Notes under the pieces: generated by a model
What the model was told of the DNA's origin: nothing
What the model saw: the letters and a program-made list of their open reading frames with translations, nothing else
The model's database searches: none
Made by a program: the position numbers and the translations under genes
Source of the DNA: Candidatus Bathyarchaeota archaeon A05DMB-2
GTDB lineage: Archaea; Thermoproteota; Bathyarchaeia; Bathyarchaeales; Bathycorpusculaceae
Assembly: GCA_018475625.1 (NCBI GenBank)
Contig: JAAKEZ010000008.1
Coordinates: 1-64,000 of the forward strand
Length of the DNA stretch: 64,000 nt
Direction: 5' to 3'
Shown: positions 9,445 through 52,562 of the stretch, one piece after another
Numbering within the stretch: position 1 is the stretch's first letter
How the letters are laid out: the number at the start of each line of letters is the position of its first letter

Positions 9445-9685
9445 TATTCACACCTTGTTTTTGTTTCTTAATATAGCAGAATGCCCTTTTAAGATTTAAC
9501 CTATATTACGATATATGACACATATCTTAGGAGTCATAAATCAAGAAACCGTATTATTTTAAACCCCGACAAACCCTCACAAGCCCCAAAAACACAAAAA
9601 CGCCAAAGTTATCGGCACGCCGCCGAATCCGACTCAGAAAGTGTTTTATAAAAAAACCGAAGAAATATAGAAACCGCGTGAAAAA

Positions 9686-10646: not shown

Positions 10647-11357
10647 TTAATCTCGTTTCATCGCTTCCGCTCTAAGCTCTTTCGGCATAAGCTCAACCGC
10701 GTATCGCAGCGCAGTGCGTGGCATTCTCTTCCTATTCCGCAGCACGTACTCCAGAACCTCACGCTGATGCTTTCTACTTGCCTCCTTAAGCAGCCAGCCA
10801 TACCCTTTCTGCACCATGTCATCCTCATCCAACAACAATATGTCGCTTATCTCAAACGCTTCCCGCAAAAATCTGCCGTTCTTGGCTGGAATGATGAGCG
10901 ATACTGCCGCAGCTCTCTTCAGCCATCGGTTCCCAGACAAAGCCCAACGCTTCAACTCGTCAACGGCTTCTGGATACTTCGTTATCAAACCGCCTACCGT
11001 ATGGTTGCAGAAACCGTCACATTTAGCCCAGTTATCGATGTACTTCTCAATCCACGTTTTGAAAACTGCCAAGTCGCTTGGTTCAAGCTGCTCCATCAGG
11101 TTCGGCAGCCAAAACGCCACGACGAACGCTTCTTCGGTGAAGCCTGAACGGTACAATTCTTCACAGAGCCCGAAAATCTCCGGTTTGCTGAGCTGTTTGA
11201 TTTGGTTCCAGTGCTTCTTGGCGATTTTGCCAACAACCAGAGTTTTCACTCCATAGCAGGTGACATTTTCCTTGAAGAACCTCTGGAAGCCCTGCTTTGT
11301 TTTATCGTCCGCGCTTGCCCTAAGTTCTTCCCTGATTCTCTCTACGACTTGACTCAT
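10647..11357 (-). CDS. AlkD-like DNA alkylation repair protein (HEAT-like)
   Basis: 236 residues of helical repeats from the chosen ATG. Characteristic AlkD-family elements: an early KTKQGFQRFFKENVTCYGVK, EEAFVVAFWLPNLM, WAKCDGFCNHTVG with the conserved Trp-Asp/Lys-Cys-Asp pattern, and ALSGNRWLKRAAAVSLI. The family removes bulky or positively charged alkylated bases by a HEAT-repeat glycosylase, although several members only bind DNA. An upstream in-frame start would add a hydrophobic Cys-rich stretch unlike the family. Confidence 0.85.
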   Translation of the reverse strand: MSQVVERIREELRASADDKTKQGFQRFFKENVTCYGVKTLVVGKIAKKHWNQIKQLSKPEIFGLCEELYRSGFTEEAFVVAFWLPNLMEQLEPSDLAVFKTWIEKYIDNWAKCDGFCNHTVGGLITKYPEAVDELKRWALSGNRWLKRAAAVSLIIPAKNGRFLREAFEISDILLLDEDDMVQKGYGWLLKEASRKHQREVLEYVLRNRKRMPRTALRYAVELMPKELRAEAMKRD

Positions 11358-33275: not shown

Positions 33276-34007
33276 TTATAGACCATCATGTCTCTTTAAC
33301 GCCTCAGTAACAGCAGCCTTAGTTGCATGCCCAATTAACTCGCCAATCTTGACGTGCCCACTGGACGCAAGCAAAGGCCTACCCATTCTCCCAGAAACAA
33401 CAATAACGTTGTCAGTTCCCGTACCAGTAGCTTGATGCTGAGGCGCTGAGGTGCTTCGGACATTCAAATCCTGAAGAGCCGCGGTTTTTGCTTCTGTGGC
33501 GGTAATAATAGCCCGCGCCATGGCACCGTTGCTTAAATTTGCGTTTGTAAGAAGAATCAAATTAATAGTTCCTAGCGTACTGAAGAATTTGCCATCTCGC
33601 TCCACGTAAGATGCCGTATCCACGCCTGTTCGTAGAGCGTTGCCTTTTGCTCCTGCAGTAGCTAGACAGTACACTTTGAACTCTTCATATGACTTCTCAC
33701 GTACGGCTGCGTTGTCCATGTTGACGCCGGTGCTCATGAACGCGATGTGTCGTGGATTGATTCCTAATGCACGGGGTAATTTCCTCTTAAAGGCGTTGTA
33801 ATTCATCATAGTACGTTCGGATAACCGAAGCGGAGTGTAATTGTTGGCTACAAACTTGACCCTTTTGAACCCATCCAAAGTTGAGAGAACCCTACGCTTT
33901 TCATCAAAAGAGACAAGCAGCGTGTTTAGATCGAATCCTTCATAGGTATGGTAGATTATTTTGGCTTCGACTCCTTCTAACTCAAGATGTATTTTCTTTT
34001 CTTTCAT
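33276..34007 (-). CDS. cbiZ: Adenosylcobinamide amidohydrolase
   Basis: 243 residues of the CbiZ family: AFMSTGVNMDNAAV, TAGAKGNALRTGVD, then GTINLILLTNANLS and the ATGTGTDNVIVV motif near residue 195. CbiZ cleaves the aminopropanol side chain from adenosylcobinamide or pseudocobalamin to give cobyric acid, allowing salvage and remodelling of corrinoids. Last gene of the corrinoid operon, 2 bases after cobN. Confidence 0.92.
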   Translation of the reverse strand: MKEKKIHLELEGVEAKIIYHTYEGFDLNTLLVSFDEKRRVLSTLDGFKRVKFVANNYTPLRLSERTMMNYNAFKRKLPRALGINPRHIAFMSTGVNMDNAAVREKSYEEFKVYCLATAGAKGNALRTGVDTASYVERDGKFFSTLGTINLILLTNANLSNGAMARAIITATEAKTAALQDLNVRSTSAPQHQATGTGTDNVIVVSGRMGRPLLASSGHVKIGELIGHATKAAVTEALKRHDGL

Positions 34008-34009
34008 GC

Positions 34010-37000
34010 CTATTTCTCCTTACTACTCTTCTTTTCGCTTGCGCCTTCAAGCAACCCTTCAATATCCAAGTAACTCTTTTGCAGTTTCTTCTTCATTTCT
34101 TCTGTAGCTTGCCACAAATTACGCTCGATAGCCTCCAGAAGCCGCTCAATCATGTTCTGCAAAGCGTAAGGATTCACCTCTTTAAGCCACTCTTGTACCT
34201 TCTTATCAAAAACATATTTTTCAGCCAACTCTTCCCACATCCAGTCTTCAACAACCTCAACCGTAGCGTCCCAACCCAAGACGAAGTCAAATGTTCTCGA
34301 GAAGTCGCCTGCAGCTTCATAGCCGTGACGCATCATGCTCTCTATCCATTTAGGATTAAGAAGGCGTGATCGAAAAACATAACAGGTTTCTTCTGCTGTG
34401 CTCCTAACCTTAACTCTGTTAGGGTCAGAGCTGTCGCCACAATAAGAGCGAGGCGCTTTCCCTTTTAGGGTTCTGACAGCGTTAATCATGCCACCATGTG
34501 CGTCATACCAGTCATCACCGTCAAGTATGTCGTATTCACGTGAATCTTGATTCTTCACTGTTACATCAATGCTGCTCAAACGCCGCTTAAACTGCTCCGG
34601 AACTGAGCACCCATAAGTTTTACGACTATAAGCATAGCTTCCCCATGTAACATAGATATCACTCAGATCTTTTTGATCTCTCCAGTTTTTCGCGTCCACT
34701 GCTTCGCTGACACCGCAGCCGTAGGCGCCAGGGCGGTCACCGAAAATCCTGTAATGCGCCTCTTCTTTTGCCTTTTCCAAGTCAACACCTTGATCGACAC
34801 GCTCTTTTACTTCGGCTTCCACATGCTTTGCAATATAGTTTTGTTCAGCGGGCTCTTTAAGGCTGGCTACCAATGCTACTGCATCATCGATTATGTGTAC
34901 AATGTTGGGGAAGGTGTCTCTGAAAAGCCCGCTAATTCGAACGATGACATCAATTCGAGGGCGCTTTAGCACCTCTAGCGGGATCGATTCGATGCCTATA
35001 ACTCGTCCACTGGTCTCTTCCCATATAGGCTTGACGCCCATAAGATAAAGAATTTCAGCTATATCATCGCCTTTTGTTTTCATAGTATCAGTAGCCCAAA
35101 TGACAATGCCGACGCTTTCAGGGTACTTTCCTTCTTCCTTCAGGTACCGCTCCAGTAAAGCATCACCTAAAGCAACACCTACACGCCAAGAAGCTTGTGA
35201 AGGCACCGCACGAGGGTCCACAGAGTAAAAATTCCGTCCAGTAGGCAAAATATCAGCCATACCCCTTGTTACGGAACCAGAAGGACCAGGAGAGACGTAA
35301 GTGCCTTCACAAGCTACCAAAGTATTTGTTAGCTCATCAGTGGTTGCCTCCAAAGCAGGAACAAGAAAACTGCTAATGTAAACGAGGCACCGCCGAACAT
35401 TGGGGTTGGTTCCGCCTAGAACTTCCTGCATTACCGAATCGATGTCTTGTTCTTTAAAGCCTTTAGCATGAAATTTTCTAATTAATTCCAAAGAAAGCTC
35501 ATGTAACTCTTTAATGACGTCTCCGTTGGTTCTGCCTTCAGCATTCAACTTACCTCTATTCGCCAACAAGTCCTCGTAATCGTACCCTTTCATCTCAGCA
35601 ATCGACTGCCGCAAAGAAGGCACACCACCATTATTCAGCCTAGTCAAGGTGACTATAAACTCATCCAGACGGGAGTCGGTTGGGGGTTCACCTAGAGTGT
35701 GTAACCCATCTCTAATTTGGGCGTCAGATAATTCATTTATGTAAGCATGCAGCCTTTCCAAGAAAGCATCAAAGTTAGAGAAAGCAGATTCCTCGATAAC
35801 CTCAAGGTCGCGATCCAGCTTGGCTTGAACTACGGTTTCCCAAATTAGCTTTTGAGAAACTTGCAGCTTACTTGGATCAGTAGTTTTGGTGTGATAATAA
35901 TCCTGTAATTGAACTTGCAGCTTTGCCAACTCCTCATAAGTATCAGCATTATGCATGACTGGCACTAGGTGCTCTATGATGCAGCAGTAGCTTCTTCTTT
36001 TCGCTTGAGTGCCCTCACCTGGATTGGTAATGACATACGGATAAATATTAGGCAAATCTGAGATAGCTATATCAGGAAAACAAGACGCAGAGAGACCAAC
36101 AGATTTGCCAGGCAGCCACTCCAATGTGCCATGTGTGCCAATATGCATAATAACATTAGCTTTAAACACATTACGAATCCAACGATAATAAGCGTAATAG
36201 TGATGCGGCATCGAAATATCCGGGCTGTGATAGATGCTTGAGGGATTTTCTAAAAAGCCGCGAGGAGGCTGAAGACCTATAAAGACGTTGCCGTTAATTA
36301 TCCCCGCAACCAGTAACTCGCCGTTGCAGCTGAAAAGTTTGCCTGGAGGATCACCCCAATCTTGCCTCATCTTTGTTTGAACGTCCACAGGAAGCTCATT
36401 AAACCATGCACTGTACTGTTCTTTAGAAATTTTAGCTACGGCTCTTTCTGCAAGTTCTTCAGCGCTTAGCCACCTGCGGTCATTAGTCAACCCATTTATT
36501 ATGGTTTCAATTAGTTCTTGCCCGTTCTTTGGCAAGGAATCCAGCTTATATCCAGATTCGCTTAAATCTCGCAAGATATTGTGCACTGAAACTGGGGCGT
36601 CAAGTCCAAAGGCGTGGCCAATCGTATCATTTCTGGGGGGATAATTATGCAAAATTATTGCAACTTTCTTTTCGCTGTTTGGAATGTGACGTAGCTTTGC
36701 CCAGTTTATACTCAAACTGACTAACTTGGCGACTCTTTCAGGAATAGGCTCGTACTGGATTATTTTAGTTCCCAAGGGGTTAGCTTGGGAAAAAGCCATC
36801 GCTGCAATAGGCACGGTAATCAAAAGGCCGTCAAACTCGGGCATTGCTATACCTGAGGGTATATCAATGATGCTGAGCCCTTGCATCGTATCGCGCCATT
36901 CTTCGTAAGTGTTGCAGGTCAAGATGGCCTTTATTATGGGCACTCCCAGTTTCTTTAACTCCGTAATTGAAGCTGAACCAGATAATGATGTGGTCAAAGA

Positions 37001-37777
37001 GAAGGACAAGGCGCTTATAACAACATCAACTATAGGTTTCCCTTCTTTCGTTAAGTAGTTTTCAATAATCCATTCTAACCCTTTTATGCCTAAAGCTTCA
37101 TTCTTGGCACCACTGAAAAACACAGGAAGCACATTGGCTCCTTGACGCTCCGCTTCTTCGATCAGATCATCTACGAAACTTGTGTTCTCACCCTGCCACT
37201 GAGTTTGGTGGAACCAGATGCCGATGGTGGGTCTTCCAGGTACTATTTTCTTTGCTATGTATTCATCTATTGTGGGAGGATGCTTAAACTCGGGGTGATA
37301 AATTCCTTCCCATGGCGGTTGTTCAGGAGCCTTAACTTCATAATTGGCTCCAGTGAAACGATTTGCTAAGTATAGCAAAAGGTTCTCGAGGTTATTTTTT
37401 CCTCCATAATTGAGGTATTTAAAAATCTCTTTGTAATCATCTTGCGCAACGGTAGAAATATTTCGATATTTGAGATTCTGCCCGAAAAAGGAAGTGGAGA
37501 CAAAAAGGGGAACACCAGCACTTTTCAGTGAAGATACAAGCAAATCAAAATCTGGGAGATCGCCCATTAAGTGAACAAGTGTCACGTGGGATTTTTGAGC
37601 GAACTCGATAAACTCATATAAGCTACCGAAAGCCCTGAAGTCGCCTCCAATTTGAATTTTAGTCTTTACTATGTCGCCTAGTCTTTCGTTTATAGATTTG
37701 ACGGCTGCGATAAAAGGTACCGCATCGGTTGGAATGGTTGTAATAAAGGCTATCTTGATTTGTGTCATACCGTTCAA
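34010..37777 (-). CDS. cobN: Cobaltochelatase CobN-type subunit
   Basis: 1255 residues, usual length for CobN/BchH. Family marks: PTIGIWFHQTQWQ near residue 200, HIGTHGTLEWLPGKSVGLSA near 550, GLHTLGEPP near 710, YVSPGPSGSVTRG near 830, and the C-terminal VRTLKGKAPRSYCGDSSDP and MRHGYEAAGDFSRTFDFVLGW. CobN binds the corrin or porphyrin ring and inserts cobalt with ATP from ChlI/D-type partners; such a partner is the first gene of this operon. Magnesium or nickel chelatase activity cannot be excluded by sequence alone. Confidence 0.93.
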   Translation of the reverse strand: MNGMTQIKIAFITTIPTDAVPFIAAVKSINERLGDIVKTKIQIGGDFRAFGSLYEFIEFAQKSHVTLVHLMGDLPDFDLLVSSLKSAGVPLFVSTSFFGQNLKYRNISTVAQDDYKEIFKYLNYGGKNNLENLLLYLANRFTGANYEVKAPEQPPWEGIYHPEFKHPPTIDEYIAKKIVPGRPTIGIWFHQTQWQGENTSFVDDLIEEAERQGANVLPVFFSGAKNEALGIKGLEWIIENYLTKEGKPIVDVVISALSFSLTTSLSGSASITELKKLGVPIIKAILTCNTYEEWRDTMQGLSIIDIPSGIAMPEFDGLLITVPIAAMAFSQANPLGTKIIQYEPIPERVAKLVSLSINWAKLRHIPNSEKKVAIILHNYPPRNDTIGHAFGLDAPVSVHNILRDLSESGYKLDSLPKNGQELIETIINGLTNDRRWLSAEELAERAVAKISKEQYSAWFNELPVDVQTKMRQDWGDPPGKLFSCNGELLVAGIINGNVFIGLQPPRGFLENPSSIYHSPDISMPHHYYAYYRWIRNVFKANVIMHIGTHGTLEWLPGKSVGLSASCFPDIAISDLPNIYPYVITNPGEGTQAKRRSYCCIIEHLVPVMHNADTYEELAKLQVQLQDYYHTKTTDPSKLQVSQKLIWETVVQAKLDRDLEVIEESAFSNFDAFLERLHAYINELSDAQIRDGLHTLGEPPTDSRLDEFIVTLTRLNNGGVPSLRQSIAEMKGYDYEDLLANRGKLNAEGRTNGDVIKELHELSLELIRKFHAKGFKEQDIDSVMQEVLGGTNPNVRRCLVYISSFLVPALEATTDELTNTLVACEGTYVSPGPSGSVTRGMADILPTGRNFYSVDPRAVPSQASWRVGVALGDALLERYLKEEGKYPESVGIVIWATDTMKTKGDDIAEILYLMGVKPIWEETSGRVIGIESIPLEVLKRPRIDVIVRISGLFRDTFPNIVHIIDDAVALVASLKEPAEQNYIAKHVEAEVKERVDQGVDLEKAKEEAHYRIFGDRPGAYGCGVSEAVDAKNWRDQKDLSDIYVTWGSYAYSRKTYGCSVPEQFKRRLSSIDVTVKNQDSREYDILDGDDWYDAHGGMINAVRTLKGKAPRSYCGDSSDPNRVKVRSTAEETCYVFRSRLLNPKWIESMMRHGYEAAGDFSRTFDFVLGWDATVEVVEDWMWEELAEKYVFDKKVQEWLKEVNPYALQNMIERLLEAIERNLWQATEEMKKKLQKSYLDIEGLLEGASEKKSSKEK

Positions 37778-37783
37778 CCTCCC

Positions 37784-38611
37784 TTAAGATTTTGCAGTTG
37801 TTTCTGGCGATGTCTTCAAGTTCTTAACTTCATTGAACTCAGACATTAAGGGCGTAATTTGAGGTCTGCCCAGAACCGAATTTGCCACATGCGCTTTAAC
37901 GCCGTAAACCAATTCTATGTTTTCTTCAGTTAACACGGATTCTGGAGTGCCAGCAGCATATATGCAACCATGCTTGAGCATAAGTATCTTGTCGGAGAAT
38001 CTGCTTGCTAAATTTAAATCATGCATTGCCGCTATGACAGAGCAATGTTTGGTTTGGGAAAGACTTCTAAGTATGCAAAGTATCTCCAACTGATGCTTAA
38101 TATCCAGTGAACTGGTTGGCTCATCTAGAAGCAAAATCTGCGGTTCTTGAGCGAGCGCACGTGCGATTATAACTTTTTGCTGTTCGCCACCACTAAGTTC
38201 ATTAAAGTGACGCATAGCCAGCTCGCCGATGCCCAAGAAATCCAGCGTTTCCGAAACTATTTCGTAATCTCGCTCACTCAAACTCCAATGTATGTAGGGT
38301 TTTCGTCCCATCAGCACTACATCAAAAACGGTGAATGGAAAGGTGCTGGTCGAGATCTGTGGAACATAACCCATAATCTTGGATAACTCTTTGAGGTTCA
38401 GCATGTTTGCGTCTTTGCCGTCAAGTAACACCGTATTCTGCTTGGTTTTTAAAATTCGGTTGGTACACCGCAAAAGCGTGCTCTTGCCTGAACCGTTAGG
38501 ACCGACAATGCTTAATATTTCGCCTTCGTCCACTATAAAATTAATGTCTTTTAGAACTGGAAAACTTGTATAGTTGAAAGAGAGGTTATTAATGGTAAGT
38601 TTCAACGCCAA
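37784..38611 (-). CDS. btuD: Corrinoid/iron-type ABC importer ATPase (BtuD-like)
   Basis: 275 residues: Walker A GPNGSGKST near residue 38, signature LSGGEQQKV near 140, Walker B LLLDEPTSSLD near 160, switch His in AMHDLNLAS. Matches the BtuD/FecE/FhuC class. Overlaps the permease gene by 10 bases. With BtuC and the binding proteins it forms a cobalamin-type importer; siderophore uptake is the alternative but context favours corrinoids. Confidence 0.92.
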   Translation of the reverse strand: MALKLTINNLSFNYTSFPVLKDINFIVDEGEILSIVGPNGSGKSTLLRCTNRILKTKQNTVLLDGKDANMLNLKELSKIMGYVPQISTSTFPFTVFDVVLMGRKPYIHWSLSERDYEIVSETLDFLGIGELAMRHFNELSGGEQQKVIIARALAQEPQILLLDEPTSSLDIKHQLEILCILRSLSQTKHCSVIAAMHDLNLASRFSDKILMLKHGCIYAAGTPESVLTEENIELVYGVKAHVANSVLGRPQITPLMSEFNEVKNLKTSPETTAKS

Positions 38612-39678
38612 CTTTGCCTCCTTTTACTTACCAGAATGTAAATAAAGAATGGAACACCTAACAACGAAGTCACGATACCTACTGGTAGTTCAGCGGGCTG
38701 AAGCACAAGCCTGCCCACCGTGTCAGAGCACAACAGCAAAACGGCACCCACAAAAGCGCTACAAGGTATAAGAAAGCGATGATCGCTTCCAATTAACATT
38801 CGAGCGATGTGCGGAGAAATTAAGCATACAAAACCAATGACGCCAGTAAAAGATATTATGCTTGCGGTTGCCAGCGTCTCTAATACCATGGTTATTTTGA
38901 GCACTCGCTTAGAATTTACTCCGAGACTTGTTGCCACATCTTCACCCATACTCATTACATTAATGTTCCAAGACTGAAACATCATAAGAACTATTGTTAC
39001 AAAAACGATGGGAGAAACAATTAAAATGCTCTCCCATGTGGCAGAATTAAGACCGCCCATGAGCCAAAAAACTACAGCGCGCACCGCTTCATGCTCAGGC
39101 GCAACGTACTGAATTAACGACAGCATAGCGGAAAAGAGGAAGCCAACAGCCACGCCTGCCAAAATCACGGTTTCGGTTGTTATTCCTCGTAGACGAGCGA
39201 TGCCGTACACCAATAGCATAGCGAGCATACAGAAGACGAAGGCGTTAGCAATAACCAAGTAATGGCCAACACCTGCTATGACACTGATTCCGAAAACGAT
39301 AGCTAGCGCTGCGCCAAAACCTGCGGCTGCAGAAATCCCCAAAATGTAAGAGGAGACCAGAGGGTTCCGTAGTACGCCTTGCATTGTTGCTCCAGAGGCA
39401 GCGAGACCAGCCCCAGCAATTATCGCTAAAACAATGCGAGGAAGACGCAAATCCCAAATTATTATTTGAGTCAGTTCAGTTCCAGGGTCAATCCCGAGAG
39501 AGGGAAAAATCTTTGCTAAGATAACTTGCATAGCCTCGTTAAACCGCGGTGAGCCAGCGCCAAGACTGACCGAGATAACTATGGCTATAAGCAATGCTAA
39601 GAAAATGGAAAGTATGGCAAGAATTTTTCGTTTCTTGCCTCTTTGATAGAGTTGTTTAAGTTCGGTAGCTTTGTTCAT
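38602..39678 (-). CDS. btuC: Corrinoid/iron-type ABC importer permease (BtuC-like)
   Basis: 358 residues from ATG (MNKATELKQLYQRGK), about ten helices, FecCD family: LRLPRIVLAIIAGAGLAASG near residue 95, QGVLRNPLVSSYILGISAAA, and GFVCLISPHIARMLIGSDHR near 300. The overlap of its ATG with the preceding binding-protein stop supports this start over a longer frame. Confidence 0.93.
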   Translation of the reverse strand: MNKATELKQLYQRGKKRKILAILSIFLALLIAIVISVSLGAGSPRFNEAMQVILAKIFPSLGIDPGTELTQIIIWDLRLPRIVLAIIAGAGLAASGATMQGVLRNPLVSSYILGISAAAGFGAALAIVFGISVIAGVGHYLVIANAFVFCMLAMLLVYGIARLRGITTETVILAGVAVGFLFSAMLSLIQYVAPEHEAVRAVVFWLMGGLNSATWESILIVSPIVFVTIVLMMFQSWNINVMSMGEDVATSLGVNSKRVLKITMVLETLATASIISFTGVIGFVCLISPHIARMLIGSDHRFLIPCSAFVGAVLLLCSDTVGRLVLQPAELPVGIVTSLLGVPFFIYILVSKRRQSWR

Positions 39679-40868
39679 GGGTACGCAAACGTTCCTTGCA
39701 CAGTTGTTCCGAAAAACTTTTGATATAGTTCCGCATGAATAGCAGTTGGGTCTATGTCTGCAAACAGGGTGGGCTGGCACCATTTTGCCCAGTAAAGGTA
39801 GCCAACTACACTACTGATTCCACCTCTTATGTCCCAATCGCAGATGTAGACCCTTCCGTTCTTGATGGCGTCTACACCAGCTAAAGCAGCACGGTTCAGT
39901 ATTTCATTACGTTCAGCGATAAAGTCTGTTGCATTATGGTTGGAGCTGCTGCTCATTCGGATAATTATGGCGGGGTTCTGTTCAACCACGAATTCGGGGC
40001 TTAGCACTGGTGCATAGACTGTTTGATTTTCGGCAATGTTGATTCCACCAGCTTGATCCAGACCAGGTGTAACAAAGGTATTGTATGGTTGGTACCATTC
40101 AAGCATAACTTTAGGTCTTTGGCTTTGATTCAGGGTTGCGATGCGCTCTTTAACGAGGTTGTTGTAGTATTGTACGTAGTTGATGTACTCGGTAGCCTTG
40201 GCTTCGTTGCCTACTATCAGGGCCAATTTGCTTATTAAATTGCAACTGAAATCCACTACTGTCAAATCTGAGTGCTTAGTTGGTTCTGGGTCGATTGGAT
40301 CAGCAATAAATATAGGTATACCTGCTGCTTCAAGCTGTTGCATGGCCACAGAGTTGTAAGGTAACATTGAATCAGCGAATATCACGTCCGGTCTTAGTTC
40401 TAAAAGCAACTCAACATTCGGCAAGTATGAATTGTCGCCCACAATGGGTACGTTCAAGACAGAAGGTGGCATGTTTGAACTCTTATCGCGCCCCACAAGT
40501 CTGTTTTGGCAGCCTAGAGCGCAAAGCATTTCTGTCAGCCCCGAATTAATGCTAACAATACGCTCTACTGGCACGGTTAGCGTAACATTTCTGCCCGCCC
40601 CATCCACAACAGTGATTACTGTTGGCCCTGGTACTTCTGAAGGTAGATGCGAAGAACCACCTGTAATATTTGAGCTTGGAGAGGGCGTCTGAGTGGGGGA
40701 TGGCGTACTTATGGGTGTCGGTTGTGGAGAAACTGTTGGACTTGGTGTGGGAGACGACGAAGGCGGAGGCGAAGCTGAGAAGTATAGTAGGTTATAGGCT
40801 CCGTAAACTGAACCAGCTATGATTATCCCGATGATAAACATTGTTGCTGCAAGAGTTGTTCTCTTCAA
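39675..40868 (-). CDS. Corrinoid/iron-type substrate-binding protein 1 (BtuF-like)
   Basis: 397 residues. An uncleaved-looking N-terminal membrane anchor (about 7-28), a Pro/Ser/Thr-rich spacer (about 32-68), then a class III periplasmic-binding fold starting VDGAGRNVTLTVPVERIVSI, with LRPDVIFADS and a C-terminal IHAELYQKFFG. No lipobox Cys. It presents captured ligand to BtuCD outside the membrane. Its ATG overlaps the upstream binding-protein stop. Confidence 0.88.
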   Translation of the reverse strand: MKRTTLAATMFIIGIIIAGSVYGAYNLLYFSASPPPSSSPTPSPTVSPQPTPISTPSPTQTPSPSSNITGGSSHLPSEVPGPTVITVVDGAGRNVTLTVPVERIVSINSGLTEMLCALGCQNRLVGRDKSSNMPPSVLNVPIVGDNSYLPNVELLLELRPDVIFADSMLPYNSVAMQQLEAAGIPIFIADPIDPEPTKHSDLTVVDFSCNLISKLALIVGNEAKATEYINYVQYYNNLVKERIATLNQSQRPKVMLEWYQPYNTFVTPGLDQAGGINIAENQTVYAPVLSPEFVVEQNPAIIIRMSSSSNHNATDFIAERNEILNRAALAGVDAIKNGRVYICDWDIRGGISSVVGYLYWAKWCQPTLFADIDPTAIHAELYQKFFGTTVQGTFAYP

Positions 40869-42061
40869 ATTTTCACCTCCTTTATGCCTTGTCTGAAATT
40901 ATTTTGGGGCAATAAGACAAGTTCACGAACGGGTAAGGCAGGAGAGATAGCGCTTAATTCTTCTAAATGCGAATAATTGTCGCCCTTTTCAGTATAGTTT
41001 TGACTTTGGGTTAGCGAACCAATTGCAGAGGGATATGCATATACATCTTCTAATTGGACACCAAAGAATTTCTGGATCATTTGCTCATGTATAGCAGTTG
41101 GTTCAATATCCTCAAAGAGGTCAGGGTGGAACCATTTTGCTAAGTATAGTAACCCAATCGCTGGTCGCAACACTAGCAGAGTGTTATGAATGATAAAGAC
41201 TTTGCCTTCGTTTACAGCCGAGGTTACACTCAATGCAGCACGGCTTAGTAGTTCATTTCGTAATGTTTGAAACACTGCCATGTCTTCACCATCCATTCGA
41301 GTTAACATCCGAACAATGATGTCTGGATTTTGTTCAGCTACATATTCAGAGCTCAAAATTGGATTGCTAACATTGAGGTTCTCAGGGGCAATGTTTCTTC
41401 CGCCTGCAGCGACTATTAGCACATCCCACGAGTCGCCTATGCTGGAAGTGTACCAAGCTTGGTACCATTCGAAGTAGACTTTAGGTTTCTGGCTTTGCGT
41501 TAGGGTTGCGATGCGTTCATTAACGAGGTTCTGATAAGTCACGGTGTAATTGATATACTCCTCAGCCCTTGCTTCTTCACCCAAGATCAAGCCAAAGTTT
41601 CTTATGGCGGTCTTCAGTCTTGGCTCCATCAGCATTTCAACAATTACAGGCACGCCAGCACTCTCAAATTTCTCACGGTTTTCGTCGCTTAACCCTTCAT
41701 CGGCAATAATCAAGTCGGGATTAAGCTCCAAAATGCGCTCCATGTTGGGACTAAATGAAGATTCTGCCACAACAGGTATTTCTAATACCGAAGGGGGGAA
41801 AGTGGAGTACGCATCACGCCCAACGATTTTGTCGCCACAGCCTAGTGCGCAGATGATTTCTACCGCGCCAGGGGCTATGTTGACGATGCGATTTACAGAT
41901 ACTTTCACTTCAACAGAAACACCTGTTTTATCGATAACGGTAACTGTCTCCTTTTGAGATTCAACCTCAGGATGATAGAATAGCCTGTGTACTCCATAGA
42001 ATGAACCGAATATAATGAATAATAGGACAATTGTGGTCACAATAGTAGTTGTTTTCTTCAT
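40865..42061 (-). CDS. Corrinoid/iron-type substrate-binding protein 2 (BtuF-like)
   Basis: 398 residues with an N-terminal membrane anchor (about 6-25), a short spacer without the Pro/Ser run of its two paralogues, and the same binding fold (VDKTGVSVEVKVSVNRIVNI, LNPDLIIADEGLS). It differs by a C-terminal extension of about 50 residues after AYPSAIGS. Second gene of the operon, 14 bases after the chelatase subunit. Confidence 0.88.
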   Translation of the reverse strand: MKKTTTIVTTIVLLFIIFGSFYGVHRLFYHPEVESQKETVTVIDKTGVSVEVKVSVNRIVNIAPGAVEIICALGCGDKIVGRDAYSTFPPSVLEIPVVAESSFSPNMERILELNPDLIIADEGLSDENREKFESAGVPVIVEMLMEPRLKTAIRNFGLILGEEARAEEYINYTVTYQNLVNERIATLTQSQKPKVYFEWYQAWYTSSIGDSWDVLIVAAGGRNIAPENLNVSNPILSSEYVAEQNPDIIVRMLTRMDGEDMAVFQTLRNELLSRAALSVTSAVNEGKVFIIHNTLLVLRPAIGLLYLAKWFHPDLFEDIEPTAIHEQMIQKFFGVQLEDVYAYPSAIGSLTQSQNYTEKGDNYSHLEELSAISPALPVRELVLLPQNNFRQGIKEVKI

Positions 42062-42075
42062 CGTGCTTCTCCTCT

Positions 42076-44085
42076 TTAAGCGTGATCAGCGATCGCGTTG
42101 GACCCGTAAAACAAGTTGCCGCGAACAGCTGACGCAATAGGTGCGGCGCTTAGTTCTTCCAACCGCAAATACTTCCCTGCCATCTCGGTGCATAGCTGCT
42201 TCACCAATCCGAATGTAAGGAAATCTCGTTCAGTGTCGATCGCAATTGACTGAATACCAGCTGCACTTATCTCACGAGCCACTGTCTTTGCTTCTTCCAC
42301 AGGGTCTCCACCATTAAGGGGAACATTCGCTTTGCCATCAGAGACTAGAACCAGAAGGGGAATAGCCTCTTTATCGCCGCTCATATAATGTCTAATCGTA
42401 TCCAGTCCAAGTTTTAATCCATGTGCCATTGGCGTACGCCCACCTGTAGGCAGTTTAGTCAAATATTTTTGTGCCAGTTCCACACTATTGGTAGGTGGAA
42501 GTACTAGTTCAGCCGTGTTTTTCCGAAAAACAACCATTCCCACACGGTCTCGCCGCTGATAGGCATCAAGCAAAAGCGAGAGGATAGCGCCTTTAGTGGC
42601 AGTCATTCTTTCTTCAGCAGCCATAGAGCCACTGGCATCAACTACAAACACAATTAAGTTGCCCACTTTTCTTTCGCGCACTTTTTCTCTTAGATCAGAG
42701 GTTTCGATAAGTAATGCGTTGGCGCTTCCATGTTCTTTTTTTCGTTGTTTCTGAAAGGGTGCAGCAGCCCTGAGAGTGGCGTCAAAAGCTAAGTCCTCTA
42801 CCTGTCCTTTAGGAATGGCACTGCCTACGTAACGTCCTGTCTTTGAGTTGCTCAAGCTCTTTGATCTGCGCCCTCTGCTACTTCGCGGCATCTGGTCTAG
42901 AGAAGGCGTAGTAATGCGTTTCACTGGATAAGGAGACCCAACTTCAAAGACTCGCTCTGTTTCAGGCTCTTCTCTTTCCAAGTTTTTGTCGTCATTATCC
43001 TTTTTAGAAGAATCATTTTCGGGTGGCGGTTTAGGCTGATTTTTGTTTTGATTCCATTTCTGGATGGTCTCTTGGAGTTGCTGCTGCTCCAGCTTTGGCT
43101 CTTCAAAAGGTTGGCGACGGCGGCGATGTGGAAGTGCTAACTCAGCGGCTTCTTTAACATCTTCTTCGATAACTTCTGTACGCCCTTTAAAGGCAGCAAT
43201 AGTGCATGCAGTTTTGTACATTGTTATGTCGGCTCGGTGTCCATCAACGCCGACGTCTATGCAAATTTGAGTGATAAGATCCAGCATTTCGTCACTTAAT
43301 TTAACATTGGACAAAAGCTTACTGGCTTCTACTATCTTACGGCGCAACTGCTCTTGATTACTGCGGTATTCAGCAAAAAAGGATGTTGGATTGTTTTCGA
43401 AGGCAATGCGCCTCCTAACTATTTCTGCTCTCGCCTCCCGATACGGGATGCCCTTAACTTCCACTGAGAGGGCAAAGCGATCCAACAGTTGAGGGCGCAA
43501 CTCACCCTCCTCAGGGTTCATGGTTCCTACTAAGACGAATTGAGCTGGATGGCTAAAAGAGACCCCTTCTCGCTCCACATAGTTTACGCCCATGGCAGCA
43601 GCATCAAGCAGAACATCCACTAAATGGTCATCCAGCAGGTTTACTTCGTCTATGTACAAGATGTTTCGGTTGGCTTCTGCAAGAAGCCCAGGCTCAAAAT
43701 GCTTTTCGCCTGTCTTAATAGCCTTTTCAATGTCAATGGTGCCCACAACTCTGTCCTCTGTTGCGCCTATCGGCAACTCTACTACAGATACAGGCCTTTT
43801 AGCAACAGGCAGCTTCTCGCCATTAGCTACCTTGGCACTGCAAGCGTCACACATTTCCTTTGGACGTGCTGGATCACAATGAAAAGGGCAATCAGCTACC
43901 ACATTTACTTCGGGCAGAAGATGAGCTAAAGCACGCACTACTAAAGATTTGCCTGTTCCTTTCTCACCTCGAAGGAGAACTCCACCAATTTTGGGATTTA
44001 TGACGTTGAGAATTAGTGCCAGTTTCATTTTTTCTTGGCCAACAATGGCACTAAAAGGGTAAACTGTTTTTGTTCGCCACCGCAT
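42076..44085 (-). CDS. ChlI-ChlD-type chelatase AAA+/VWA subunit
   Basis: 669 residues combining an AAA+ ATPase (Walker A GEKGTGKS near residue 40, [18 protein letters not shown] insertion, Walker [13 protein letters not shown] near 145), an acidic, basic and proline-rich linker (about 330-410), and a C-terminal VWA domain with MIDAS DASGSM near 485. This is the motor of magnesium and cobalt chelatases in one chain, and pairs with CobN encoded in the same operon. First gene of that operon. Confidence 0.92.
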
Positions 44086-44107
44086 TTCCCGTTTTCCCCC
44101 GTTGCAT

Positions 44108-44139
44108 GGTTAGATTATCCAACCGACCTTATAAATTTT
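44108..44139 (-). promoter_or_regulatory. Operator and TATA box of the corrinoid operon
   Basis: On the minus strand AAAATTTATAAGG (44127-44139, TATA) is followed by GGTTGGATAATCTAACC (44108-44124), an imperfect palindrome located where transcription should start, 23 bases before the chelatase ATG. The same arrangement recurs at 45553-45584. A repressor sensing corrinoid or cobalt is a likely user. Confidence 0.75.
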
Positions 44140-44279
44140 GGTTTAACTAAAGTTTAATCAAAGTTGAATAACTGGCGAATTCCGAAAACGGTTAAAGTAC
44201 GATTAAATAAAAATGGAAAGGATAGCGACGCTTTTTCGCCTTTTTGCCCCTTAAGTAAAGCTTTTGAGTCCAGCAGCGC

Positions 44280-45452
44280 TCATGGGTACACAAATACTCC
44301 TGTCAACGTAGCCCCAAAGAACCTTTGGATATACTCCGCATATATTGCCGCAGGGTCTATATCTTGGAAAAGATTTGGGTGGAGCCACTTTGCAAAATAG
44401 AGCATGCCAATCATTTGACGTTCTACTAGGAGGTTGCTTTTAATGATGTAGACTTTTCCGTCTTGGACCGCCTGTGTTCCACTTAATGCTGCTCGGTTTA
44501 GCATGTCATTTCTTAAAGTTTGAAATGCTGCTAAATCTTCGCCGTCTAAGTAGGTGAGCATTCGGATGATAATCGCTGGATTCGCCTCAGCTACAAACTC
44601 GGGACTTAACTCAGGGCTTGAAAGTGTCGCATTTTCAGCTATATTTATTCCCCCCGTCTCAACTATTAGTTTATTATATGACCCACCTGGACCTGTGCTG
44701 AACCATGGTTTATACCATTCAAAGTAAACTAAGGGCTTCTCGTCTCGCGATAGCGTCGCGATGCGTGTGTTGACCAGATTTATGTAATACGTTTCATACG
44801 CAATGAACTCCTCAGCTCTTTGCTCTGCACCCAAAAGTGCACCCAAGTTTCTTATACAAGTATTCCGCCTAGTCCCCGTTAAGGTATCCTCGATCACTGC
44901 TATTCCAGCGTTTTCAAGTTTCTTCCTATTTTCGTCAGACAGCCTCTGACTGGCGAGCACCAAGTCTGGCTGCAACTCTAGTATCAACTCCAAATTTGGT
45001 GCCATGTCTGTCCCTACATTAACTAGTGACGCCAACATCGAAGAGGGAAGAATGGCCGCGGTGTCGGAACCTAAAGATGCATCGTACCCCACGACTCTGT
45101 CTCCAGCGCCTAAGATGTAAACCGTTTCAATCATGGTAAGGCAGACGATGCGTTCCACTGGAAGAGCTACAGTAACATTGGCTCCGTTGGCGTCTACTAT
45201 AGTGATTGTTGTTGGTACTTGTAAGGGTAGGTTCGGCAAATCTGTAGAACTCGAGCTACTTGTAGAAGATGAGGATGGGGTTGGGGTAGCGGTTGAAGTT
45301 GGCGTCGAAGCAGGCGTTGGAGAGACGGTATTTGGCGGTGGTGTAGAAGACGGTGATGTTGCGGAGTAAAGCAGATTATGGGCTCCATAAACGAAAGCAG
45401 CGATAACTATACCGATAATAGACATCGTTACTATAAGAGTTGTTCTTTTCAA
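44280..45452 (-). CDS. Corrinoid/iron-type substrate-binding protein 3 (BtuF-like)
   Basis: 390 residues. Same plan as protein 1: membrane anchor (about 6-24), Pro/Ser/Thr-rich spacer (about 30-75), binding fold from VDANGANVTVALPVERIVCL, with LQPDLVLASQRLS. No lipobox. GGAGGTGA lies about 7 bases before the ATG. It is a single-gene unit just upstream of the corrinoid operon and shares its operator, so it is a third ligand-binding partner for the same BtuCD or for another ligand. Confidence 0.88.
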   Translation of the reverse strand: MKRTTLIVTMSIIGIVIAAFVYGAHNLLYSATSPSSTPPPNTVSPTPASTPTSTATPTPSSSSTSSSSSTDLPNLPLQVPTTITIVDANGANVTVALPVERIVCLTMIETVYILGAGDRVVGYDASLGSDTAAILPSSMLASLVNVGTDMAPNLELILELQPDLVLASQRLSDENRKKLENAGIAVIEDTLTGTRRNTCIRNLGALLGAEQRAEEFIAYETYYINLVNTRIATLSRDEKPLVYFEWYKPWFSTGPGGSYNKLIVETGGINIAENATLSSPELSPEFVAEANPAIIIRMLTYLDGEDLAAFQTLRNDMLNRAALSGTQAVQDGKVYIIKSNLLVERQMIGMLYFAKWLHPNLFQDIDPAAIYAEYIQRFFGATLTGVFVYP

Positions 45453-45467
45453 GATTTTTCACCTCCA

Positions 45468-45533
45468 TTACATTATTTCAAAGTGTTCCTGAATCGCGGA
45501 GACACGTAAAGCTGTTTTAGTTCGCCACTGCAT
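45468..45533 (-). pseudogene. Duplicated 5' end of the chelatase gene (21-codon leader frame)
   Basis: MQWRTKTALRVSAIQEHFEI-stop; its first 13 codons match the start of the chelatase subunit ([14 protein letters not shown]) and it lies at the same distance behind the duplicated operator and TATA box. The stop overlaps the GGAGGTGA of the binding protein gene, so it would now act as a short translated leader. Confidence 0.7.
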
Positions 45534-45552
45534 GTTCGTTCCCCTCATTTGT

Positions 45553-45584
45553 GGTTGGTTTATCCAACCATGTATATAAATTTT
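45553..45584 (-). promoter_or_regulatory. Operator and TATA box of the third binding-protein gene
   Basis: GGTTGGATAAACCAACC at 45553-45569 is a perfect palindrome (6-base arms, 5-base centre), preceded on the minus strand by the TATA element AAAATTTATATACA (45571-45584). Sequence and spacing match 44108-44139, including upstream TTTGATTAAACC. Confidence 0.75.
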
Positions 45585-45885
45585 GGTTTAATCAAAGTTA
45601 AATGAAGGTTGAATAAATCAATCGCCTACACGTGGACTTGCCTCTTTGTTTTTTGGATTACGAGTTTCAGTTTTTGGTTCTGGACCTTTTTGTGGTCGAG
45701 CCGCGTAGGTCCGCCAATAGTTCCGAGCCAAAATGGGTTCGAGTTTTATTATGTAGATAAACGAGTTACTGGTGAATGAAAAATGATGACAAAATCATAG
45801 TATTTGGCATGTGACAATTCGCTTATTGGAAAACATTTGACATGTGCGAATTGTGCACTAAAACTTTGAAAATTGGCGATTTAAA
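45585..45885. other. Intergenic region with repeat copy
   Basis: Upstream of the binding-protein promoter; contains the tRNA-flank-like repeat at 45711-45738. No gene supported before 45886. Confidence 0.45.
45711..45740 (+). repeat. Second copy of the tRNA-Lys flank repeat
   Basis: CCGCCAATAGTTCCGAGCC then AAAATGGGT, direct repeat of 31112-31140 with two substitutions and one deletion. The preceding GAGCCGCGTAGGT is tRNA-3'-like but no cloverleaf forms. Confidence 0.6.
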
Positions 45886-46026
45886 ATGGGTTGTATATGC
45901 GTGGAGTTCTCGGACGAGTTGGAGAAGCAACTCAGGTTCAAGACCATCGAGAGATTCGGTGGGAAAAAGGGCGACTTGATCCACGCGATCGAAGAGGCAG
46001 TAAGAACATGGATTGCCCAAGAATAA
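45886..46026 (+). CDS. RHH-like small protein
   Basis: 46 residues: VEFSDELEKQLRFKTIERFG, GKKGDLIHAIEEAVRTWI. A strand, then two helices with a GKKGD turn, is the plan of archaeal RHH antitoxin-type DNA-binding proteins. No toxin partner follows. Frame is short but composition is protein-like. Confidence 0.55.
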   Translation: MGCICVEFSDELEKQLRFKTIERFGGKKGDLIHAIEEAVRTWIAQE

Positions 46027-51527: not shown

Positions 51528-52562
51528 TTAGATTGTTGGTATTCTCGGATTCCAGTCTTTCCTTTCATCCCTCAAATATTTAGCTAATAGTAGAGCTTCT
51601 TCACTGATTAAGGTCTCAAGAGTCTGTCTTTTACCAACCTTCATTCTTGCTATTTCAACGTTAGACTCGAAAAACCCATTAAGCTCTCGCATCAAACCCT
51701 TAGAATCAACATCATTAAGATATTCCCTTTTCCCTATCTTCTTTCTTGTCAAAACCTCATATTTAGTGACAAAATCCTTCTTACTCAACCCGCTAAAGCG
51801 TTGAATCAAAAAATCATCAACCAAGAAACGATAAAGCTCCATCAAATCGCAGACAAGACTCGGCTTATTAAACTGCTCAGAATGCAAGAAACCGAGAAAA
51901 GGCTCAAGTTTAGCGTTAATCAAGGCTTTATGAACCTTCCACGAAAGAAGCTCATAACCCAAATTAAACAAATTATTCAATCCATCATAAGCCTTGAAAG
52001 TCCTTCGATTCTCAGGTCTCAAACCCTCAGAAAACAAGCTGAAAACTTGCTGGAAATAAGCATTAGAGCAGTGCCCTTCATACGTTGAAAGCTTCCTTCT
52101 AAGCCTATTCAAGCTCTCAAGCTCAAGATTCTTAACTCGTTCAATCATGGAAAAATCAAGCTGTCTCAACCCATATTTCTTAAGAACCTGATTCTGTCCT
52201 TGAATCTTGGCTAAAACAAGTTTCTTGGCTATTTCTAAGCCTTTTCCGCTTTTCAAAGCTTCATACTGGCAAACACGAGTTTTAACGTGTGAATCATCAT
52301 CTAACGCTTTAAGCATCGCAACAGGTCTCCCTCTCTGAGTCATAATCAAAACATCAACATCCCAGAAACCCAATGAAGCTAAAGCTCCCGTTGAAACCAT
52401 ATTTCCACTTTTCAGGATAACTTCGCCGATTTCCTTCTCAAATAAGGGAAAACGTTGAATATTTCCTTCTTTATCTTTAACCGTGAATGCGCCTTTTTCC
52501 ATTCCGAGATATGAACCGTGACTGTCAAGAATGATTTTTTGAGTTTTAGAACCCTGAACCAT
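51528..52562 (-). CDS. cas1: Cas1-type integrase (casposase)
   Basis: 344 residues. N-terminal Cas1 beta domain (LDSHGSYLGMEKGAFTVKDK, LIMTQRGRPVA) and helical C-terminal domain with all metal ligands: Glu162 in YEGHCSNAYF, His227 in GFLHSEQ, and Asp239/Glu242 in VCDLMELYRF. In casposons Cas1 inserts the element and makes 14-15-base duplications. Unlike many casposases it ends at KYLRDERKDWNP without an added C-terminal HTH. Starts within the stop of the winged-helix gene (TAATG). No cas2, no CRISPR. Confidence 0.95.
   Translation of the reverse strand: MVQGSKTQKIILDSHGSYLGMEKGAFTVKDKEGNIQRFPLFEKEIGEVILKSGNMVSTGALASLGFWDVDVLIMTQRGRPVAMLKALDDDSHVKTRVCQYEALKSGKGLEIAKKLVLAKIQGQNQVLKKYGLRQLDFSMIERVKNLELESLNRLRRKLSTYEGHCSNAYFQQVFSLFSEGLRPENRRTFKAYDGLNNLFNLGYELLSWKVHKALINAKLEPFLGFLHSEQFNKPSLVCDLMELYRFLVDDFLIQRFSGLSKKDFVTKYEVLTRKKIGKREYLNDVDSKGLMRELNGFFESNVEIARMKVGKRQTLETLISEEALLLAKYLRDERKDWNPRIPTI

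Follow-up and report, generated by a model that had tools for sequence, protein, structure and literature searches.

The closest described systems fall into three classes. The first is termination-reinitiation coupling (Huber et al. 2019, PMC6728339; Huber et al. 2023, PMC10666635). In the passages of these papers on coupled gene pairs, re-initiation in archaea was measured for overlaps of the 4-nt type, and the pairs carry a Shine-Dalgarno motif before the downstream start, as do the leaders described here. The passages of the later paper on Haloferax volcanii report coupling that is strong for overlaps and near zero at 22-23 nt, with pairs 13 or 14 nt apart re-initiating substantially less and varying from 40 to 60%, and those on Escherichia coli report that short 3' pieces of the upstream gene suffice for coupling (PMC10666635). 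The upstream partner is functional in the pairs treated in these passages (PMC6728339, PMC10666635); in the present case a decayed gene or an unconserved frame takes its place, and coupling is presumed.

The second class is tandem operon duplication with differential gene loss. There, as here, stubs of the lost genes mark the copies; the present case differs in that stubs on the path from the promoter to the next gene are open and those off this path are broken. The third class comprises regulatory leader peptides and uORFs, of which a paper on a copper uORF reportedly gives an example. In these too, a short frame separates the promoter from the main gene, but the leader described here has no conserved peptide, and its apparent origin is the collapsed first gene of a duplicated operon. 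Among the open-licence PMC papers listed for a cobalamin or cobalt operator in archaea, for leader ORFs from gene remnants and archaeal uORFs, and for Bathyarchaeia with cobaltochelatase or cobalamin, none describing the present arrangement was found.

In this study, we analysed a window of 64,000 nt, the whole stretch of DNA presented above, in which a cobalamin-type gene cluster is headed by a short leader frame (Table 1). We consider it probable that an operon was duplicated in tandem, that the chelatase gene of one copy collapsed, and that open remnants of such genes were retained for re-initiation at the next gene. The locus offers a worked route for the origin of a leader ORF, the collapse of an operon's first gene, and naturally occurring intermediates illustrate its stages. 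In archaeal operons transcription is linked to translation, and the locus provides a natural test of whether selection there acts on the translation of a leader and not on any peptide. The wider value of the feature in the window lies in the repeated, frame-preserving collapse across the family.

Table 1. Features of the cobalamin-type gene cluster in the window, all members of which lie on the minus strand (BP, binding protein).
Feature	Position	Strand	Remark
Flank common to the leader promoter and the intact chelatase promoter of genus-mate G001	45621..45709	-	
Presumed TATA box TTTATATA (45573-45580) and presumed conserved upstream element, leader promoter	45573..45616	-	
Operator-like palindrome GGTTGGATAAACCAACC, leader promoter	45553..45569	-	motif class in 56/90 family genomes
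Leader frame, 21 codons (MQWRTKTALRVSAIQEHFEIM, stop)	45468..45533	-	remnant of chelatase gene 5' end
Shine-Dalgarno of BP3, GGAGGTG	45460..45466	-	one base past leader stop
BP3, substrate-binding protein (Peripla_BP_2)	44280..45452	-	TTG start at 45452
FecCD permease N-terminus remnant (MSAAGLKSFT-stop-GAKRRKSVAILSIFI)	44210..44283	-	in-frame stop
Second promoter/operator copy and chelatase start codons	44061..44171	-	
Chelatase ATPase subunit, intact	42076..44085	-	TIGR02442, putative cobaltochelatase
BP1, binding protein	40865..42061	-	with in-frame chelatase C-terminal remnant
BP2, binding protein	39675..40868	-	TTG start overlaps BP1 stop by 4 nt
FecCD/BtuC-type permease	38602..39678	-	
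ABC ATPase	37784..38611	-	
CobN-type cobaltochelatase large subunit	34010..37777	-	
CbiZ, adenosylcobinamide amidohydrolase	33276..34007	-	

Duplicated promoter and leader frame

An earlier note on this DNA had reported that the promoter and start codons of the chelatase gene are copied upstream of a binding-protein gene, and our analysis confirmed this duplication. The promoter, operator and first chelatase codons at 44061-44171 recur at 45509-45616, ahead of BP3, as two in-register repeat pairs (44094-44171 with 45539-45616, 77%; 44061-44085 with 45509-45533, 88%). Local alignment of the two upstream regions bore the claim out with a score of 119.5. None of 1240 other 201-nt pieces taken from the window exceeded 43.5, a score reached by edge pieces and in the related BP2 region.

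Six-frame translation of the window yielded 12,786 pieces, and the leader matched the chelatase N-terminus better than any other non-self piece (score 45; next unrelated, 34). Its secure chelatase homology covers only about the first 7-8 codons, and for these the statement that the leader copies the first chelatase codons stands; it does not extend to codons 8-21, which alone scored 14 against a shuffle mean of 13.9, no better than shuffles. When the leader is aligned as a whole with the chelatase of G001, the alignment extends through codon 20. A possible match of the leader's second half to the chelatase C-terminus, with a score attained by 57 of 2000 shuffles, was dropped because chelatase codons 1-20 gave the better alignment.

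The leader stop had been described as overlapping the Shine-Dalgarno of the binding-protein gene. This proved incorrect: the TAA (45470-45468) is followed by a single T and then by GGAGGTG (45466-45460), and the gap from the stop to the BP3 TTG (45452) is 15 nt, with no overlap. An apparently translatable open frame of 21 codons does precede BP3, and the earlier description of a leader formed by a copied promoter and start codons is supported, its translation being presumed. Shuffles of the window leader considered by itself gave such an open frame with a chance of 0.35.

Tandem duplication of the operon

Directly 3' of BP3 we found a 28-codon stretch with stops (MSAAGLKSFT-stop-GAKRRKSVAILSIFI-stop) that matches the start of FecCD (MNKATELKQLYQRGKKRKILAILSIFL). 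Its DNA score of 70 was attained by 0 of 2000 shuffles, and it was the best non-self match among 12,780 pieces of the window (50 against 37). Another remnant lies between BP1 and BP2: the last 45 or so codons of BP1 (40865-40997) represent the chelatase C-terminus, joined in frame to the binding protein. The DNA score of this extension against the chelatase C-terminus was 64 (shuffle maximum 30, 0 of 2000), and its protein score was 44, with 38 for the next unrelated piece of the window and 1 of 5000 shuffles attaining it. The chelatase 5' end, BP3 and the FecCD 5' end thus precede the second promoter in the order of a duplication scar. As the chelatase and permease remnants occupy the sites expected from copies of a promoter-chelatase-BP-FecCD unit, they indicate tandem operon duplication.

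The flank of the window's leader promoter (45709-45621) is matched in the genus-mate G001 by the flank ahead of an intact chelatase. In a comparison covering only about 90 nt past the promoter, this match places an intact unit at the same position in a close relative. Similarity between the G001 locus and the chelatase of the window begins only at the promoter. Since the G001 flank matches that of the leader promoter and not that of the window chelatase, the window leader marks the old operon head. These results point to the leader piece as the scar of a tandem duplication of promoter, chelatase, BP and permease, in which the chelatase decayed in place.

The earlier note had read the arrangement as promoter capture, in which only about 110 bp of promoter and start codons would have been copied before a pre-existing BP3, which would have gained regulation. 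The similarity between the copies does span only about 110 nt. However, the FecCD stub follows BP3, a chelatase C-terminal remnant persists, and the flank upstream of the leader promoter is homologous to the intact G001 operon head. In relatives G024 and G085, moreover, an entire duplicated BP-FecCD unit lies upstream of the chelatase, and G077 still has the chelatase 3' end before BP. Promoter capture is therefore very improbable, and this evidence favours operon duplication.

Under operon duplication, an ancestor of this archaeon would have acquired a tandem copy of an operon with the order promoter-chelatase-binding protein-FecCD permease, followed by further genes. Internal deletion would then have shrunk the upstream chelatase to about its first 20 codons and the BP3 junction, the upstream permease would have been reduced to a broken stub, and BP3 would have remained under the original head promoter.

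Intermediates of collapse in related genomes

The chelatase was present in 30 of the 90 family genomes (E <= 1e-150), and relatives held intermediates of the collapse. In G024 the gene order is leader-BP-FecCD-promoter-chelatase-BP-FecCD-ATPase-CobN, with the duplicated permease kept; the order in G085 is BP-FecCD-chelatase-BP-FecCD, and G032 has the gene order of the window without BP1. The FecCD copies of a genome share 71% protein identity in G024 and 67% in G085, and in the FecCD tree neither genome's copies group as a pair, which indicates that the duplications are old or were followed by exchange.

The chelatase remnants themselves differ in extent. In G100:C23, a single open 88-codon frame before BP combines chelatase aa 1-40 (35% identity) with aa 626-660 (49%). 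The open 64-codon frame before BP in G077 matches the chelatase C-end with a score of 73 (shuffle maximum 38) and the N-end weakly, and a frameshifted FecCD stub follows BP. G101 has 75 open codons (chelatase residues 1-55, 58%) leading into FecCD on C23 and 37 open codons leading into CobN on C11, and the G024 leader has 26 codons (MWRTKNTVY...). Together with the window (G000), all six chelatase-derived leaders examined were open. When chelatase codons were mutated randomly to the same divergence, without indels, the probability of an open frame was 0.50 for G000, 0.41 for G024, 0.13 for G077, 0.04 for G100, 0.08 for G101:C23 and 0.23 for G101:C11, and the joint chance of all six being open, taken as the product, was about 10^-4.7. 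Off-path FecCD stubs carried stops or frameshifts in both cases seen (window and G077). Similar collapses of the chelatase appear to have recurred repeatedly in the family.

Chelatase fragments in G008 and G039, considered as further remnants, were discarded, their matches sitting at contig ends; the one further locus that a search of genome contigs gave, the distant L134 (35% identity), was left out.

Leader frames across the family

We collected 32 BP genes behind a promoter copy, 30 in the family and 2 in a single genome (G053) of a sister family. BP starts were picked by Shine-Dalgarno and signal sequence, independently of the leader, and duplicates of a locus were counted once. BP rows with a promoter score below 48 were left out (G004_C11, 38; G008_C105, 42; G101a at 11068; G103 at 9681; G103_1352k), as were G004_C44 and the BP1-like row of G087 (both 48), though their frames begin near the promoter (short class). 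Comparison of relatives for the presence of the leader, which had been proposed earlier, gave a divided result: leaders of at least 60 nt occurred in 23 of the 32 BP units, and 9 were shorter than 60 nt (for example 45 nt in G064, 51 nt in G076 and 56 nt in G066). As the promoter lies directly before BP in some relatives, a leader is not required.

Every one of the 23 leaders of at least 60 nt had a frame from the old chelatase start position to the BP start. The frames opened 6-26 nt past the operator and ended at -16 to +8 relative to the BP start, with an exact 4-nt stop/start overlap (+4, NTGA) in 17. A purine-rich, Shine-Dalgarno-like 5-mer stood ahead of the leader start in 18 of the 23. 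Leader lengths ranged from 5-6 to 100 codons, and the downstream starts were often TTG, GTG, CTG or even ATA. The apparent BP start after the leader at L056 (G024) is ATA, with a perfect Shine-Dalgarno, and the apparent start in G085:C2 and G103 is CTG. Tandem binding-protein genes were also seen fused into single frames of 670-1006 aa (G101, G103, G099, G047, G053, G119).

Dinucleotide shuffles of the leader interiors gave an expectation of 8.5 such frames among the 23 (log10 P -14.8), or 6.4 of 17 after removal of redundant loci (log10 P -11.3), where the frame search windows were fixed after inspecting the leaders and the P values are partly post hoc. As a control, real genes of the same loci gave such frames in 10.8% of 1654 gene/length pairs (77 genes). 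At native chelatase junctions the stop lies mostly within or before the Shine-Dalgarno, and by eye at most 1 of 31 has a 4-nt overlap, indicating that the overlaps were not simply inherited and arose after collapse. In most leaders chelatase similarity is undetectable, and their descent from the chelatase is presumed from promoter and start position only.

A later set comprised 26 operator rows in which the apparent leader measured 60 nt or more; 11 complied with this pattern and 15 did not. The compliant rows were L229 (already in the first set), seven genes that we take to be DPH6-like and three BP/CobN leaders; with L237, added by eye, the BP/CobN leaders found later complied in 4 of 4 cases (L220, +1; L230, -5; L234, +8; L237, -6). 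Among the 15 misses, 12 were genes presumably of the ECF type, 2 lay before structured RNA-like stretches (the first site of L205, and L231) and 1 was DPH6-like (L201). In 8 of the 12 ECF-type misses, a long frame (182-195 codons) opens just behind the operator and runs through the assigned start, and we read these as start mis-assignments; at L211, L243, L245 and L248 the start was not found in the tested window.

Probable translational coupling and the leader peptide

The sole close ribosome entry of the promoter would be the old chelatase start, about 20 nt behind the operator. Ribosomes would begin there, traverse a peptide of irrelevant sequence, terminate at the binding-protein start or shortly ahead of it and re-initiate at that start, and translation through the leader would also keep the nascent mRNA covered. 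Because no other ribosome entry would lie close to the promoter, remnants that are open up to the next gene would be retained. Most likely, translational coupling is what kept the collapsed genes open. The sequences themselves show the duplication, the remnants, the intermediates of relatives and the surplus of open frames and 4-nt overlaps; leader translation, re-initiation and selection on openness are what we infer from the frames and their end points.

The possible coupling raised in the earlier note is plausible for the class, in view of the 4-nt overlap in 17 of 23, and weaker for the window. BP3 has a Shine-Dalgarno before its start (GGAGGTG, 45466-45460), as in the described coupled pairs, but the leader stop lies 15 nt before that start, and coupling there would therefore be partial.

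The leader might instead be a passive pseudogene remnant, open by chance and recency, with BP3 initiating on its own strong Shine-Dalgarno. Considered alone, the window is compatible with this explanation, given the shuffle chance of 0.35, the perfect GGAGGTG of BP3 and the 15-nt gap, and relatives without a leader exist. Across the family, however, open frames were in excess (23/23 against 8.5 expected, including frames of 88 and 100 codons), 4-nt overlaps dominated and the off-path FecCD stubs were broken in both cases seen, and we consider a passive remnant unlikely.

A further explanation is that the leader encodes a regulatory peptide, an attenuator or arrest peptide sensing cobalt or corrinoid, as its position behind the operator of a cobalamin/cobalt-type operon and the recurrence of leader ORFs might suggest. 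Against this, the orthologous 40-codon leaders of G087 and G064b differ by 2 synonymous and 11 non-synonymous changes, with 0 stops or indels, and leader lengths vary from 5-6 to 100 codons. No motif common to the leader peptides was seen by eye. A regulatory peptide is highly improbable. By these comparisons the leader peptide is not conserved, and openness and end point appear to be what is kept. The leader frames in relatives vary freely in sequence yet reach the next gene, suggesting that they are kept so that ribosomes arrive there.

A broader reading, which we put forward tentatively, is that first-gene decay in the family's duplicated cobalamin-transport operons may be channelled. Selection would ignore the peptide and keep the frame open from the single ribosome entry of the promoter to the next gene, so that a dead gene would become a ribosome lead of no fixed sequence, as short as 5-6 codons, with a 4-nt overlap at its end and often a non-AUG start (TTG, GTG, CTG, ATA) behind it.

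Operator and neighbouring genes

The operator TTGGATAATCCAWCCA (at most one mismatch) was found in 56 of the 90 family genomes, and the reversed pattern gave 4 matches in 3 genomes. Its sites in the window are 45553-45569 and 44108-44124, with another at G000:C20:20616-20631. It also precedes genes that we take to be CbiM-like (MHIMEGFLPHPWW...), NifH-like and CobN genes, and it looks like the mark of a cobalt/corrinoid regulon.

GC-rich, strongly folding, gene-free stretches lie just behind the operator at L118 (G103), L115 (G101), L205 (G083) and L231 (G099). Rfam gave 0 matches at the folding stretches of L115, L118, L122 and L231, and tRNAs only on the window and 7 loci. These stretches are candidates for regulated non-coding RNA.

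Behind the operator, 7 of 8 presumably DPH6-like genes (MKVVASWSGGKDS) had a 43-67-codon leader frame ending 1-16 nt before the gene (L193, L194, L196, L209, L218, L224, L227; exception L201). These leaders have a TTG start in 7 of 7, L224 also a GTG, and several begin alike.

In the window, a 46-aa ribbon-helix-helix-like frame at 45886-46026 on the plus strand is divergent from the leader promoter and is a possible candidate regulator; it scored 24.7 bits against PF16762, below the 27-bit cut-off. The frame at 51528-52562 on the minus strand, which we take to be Cas1-like, is preceded by a small helix-turn-helix-like frame.
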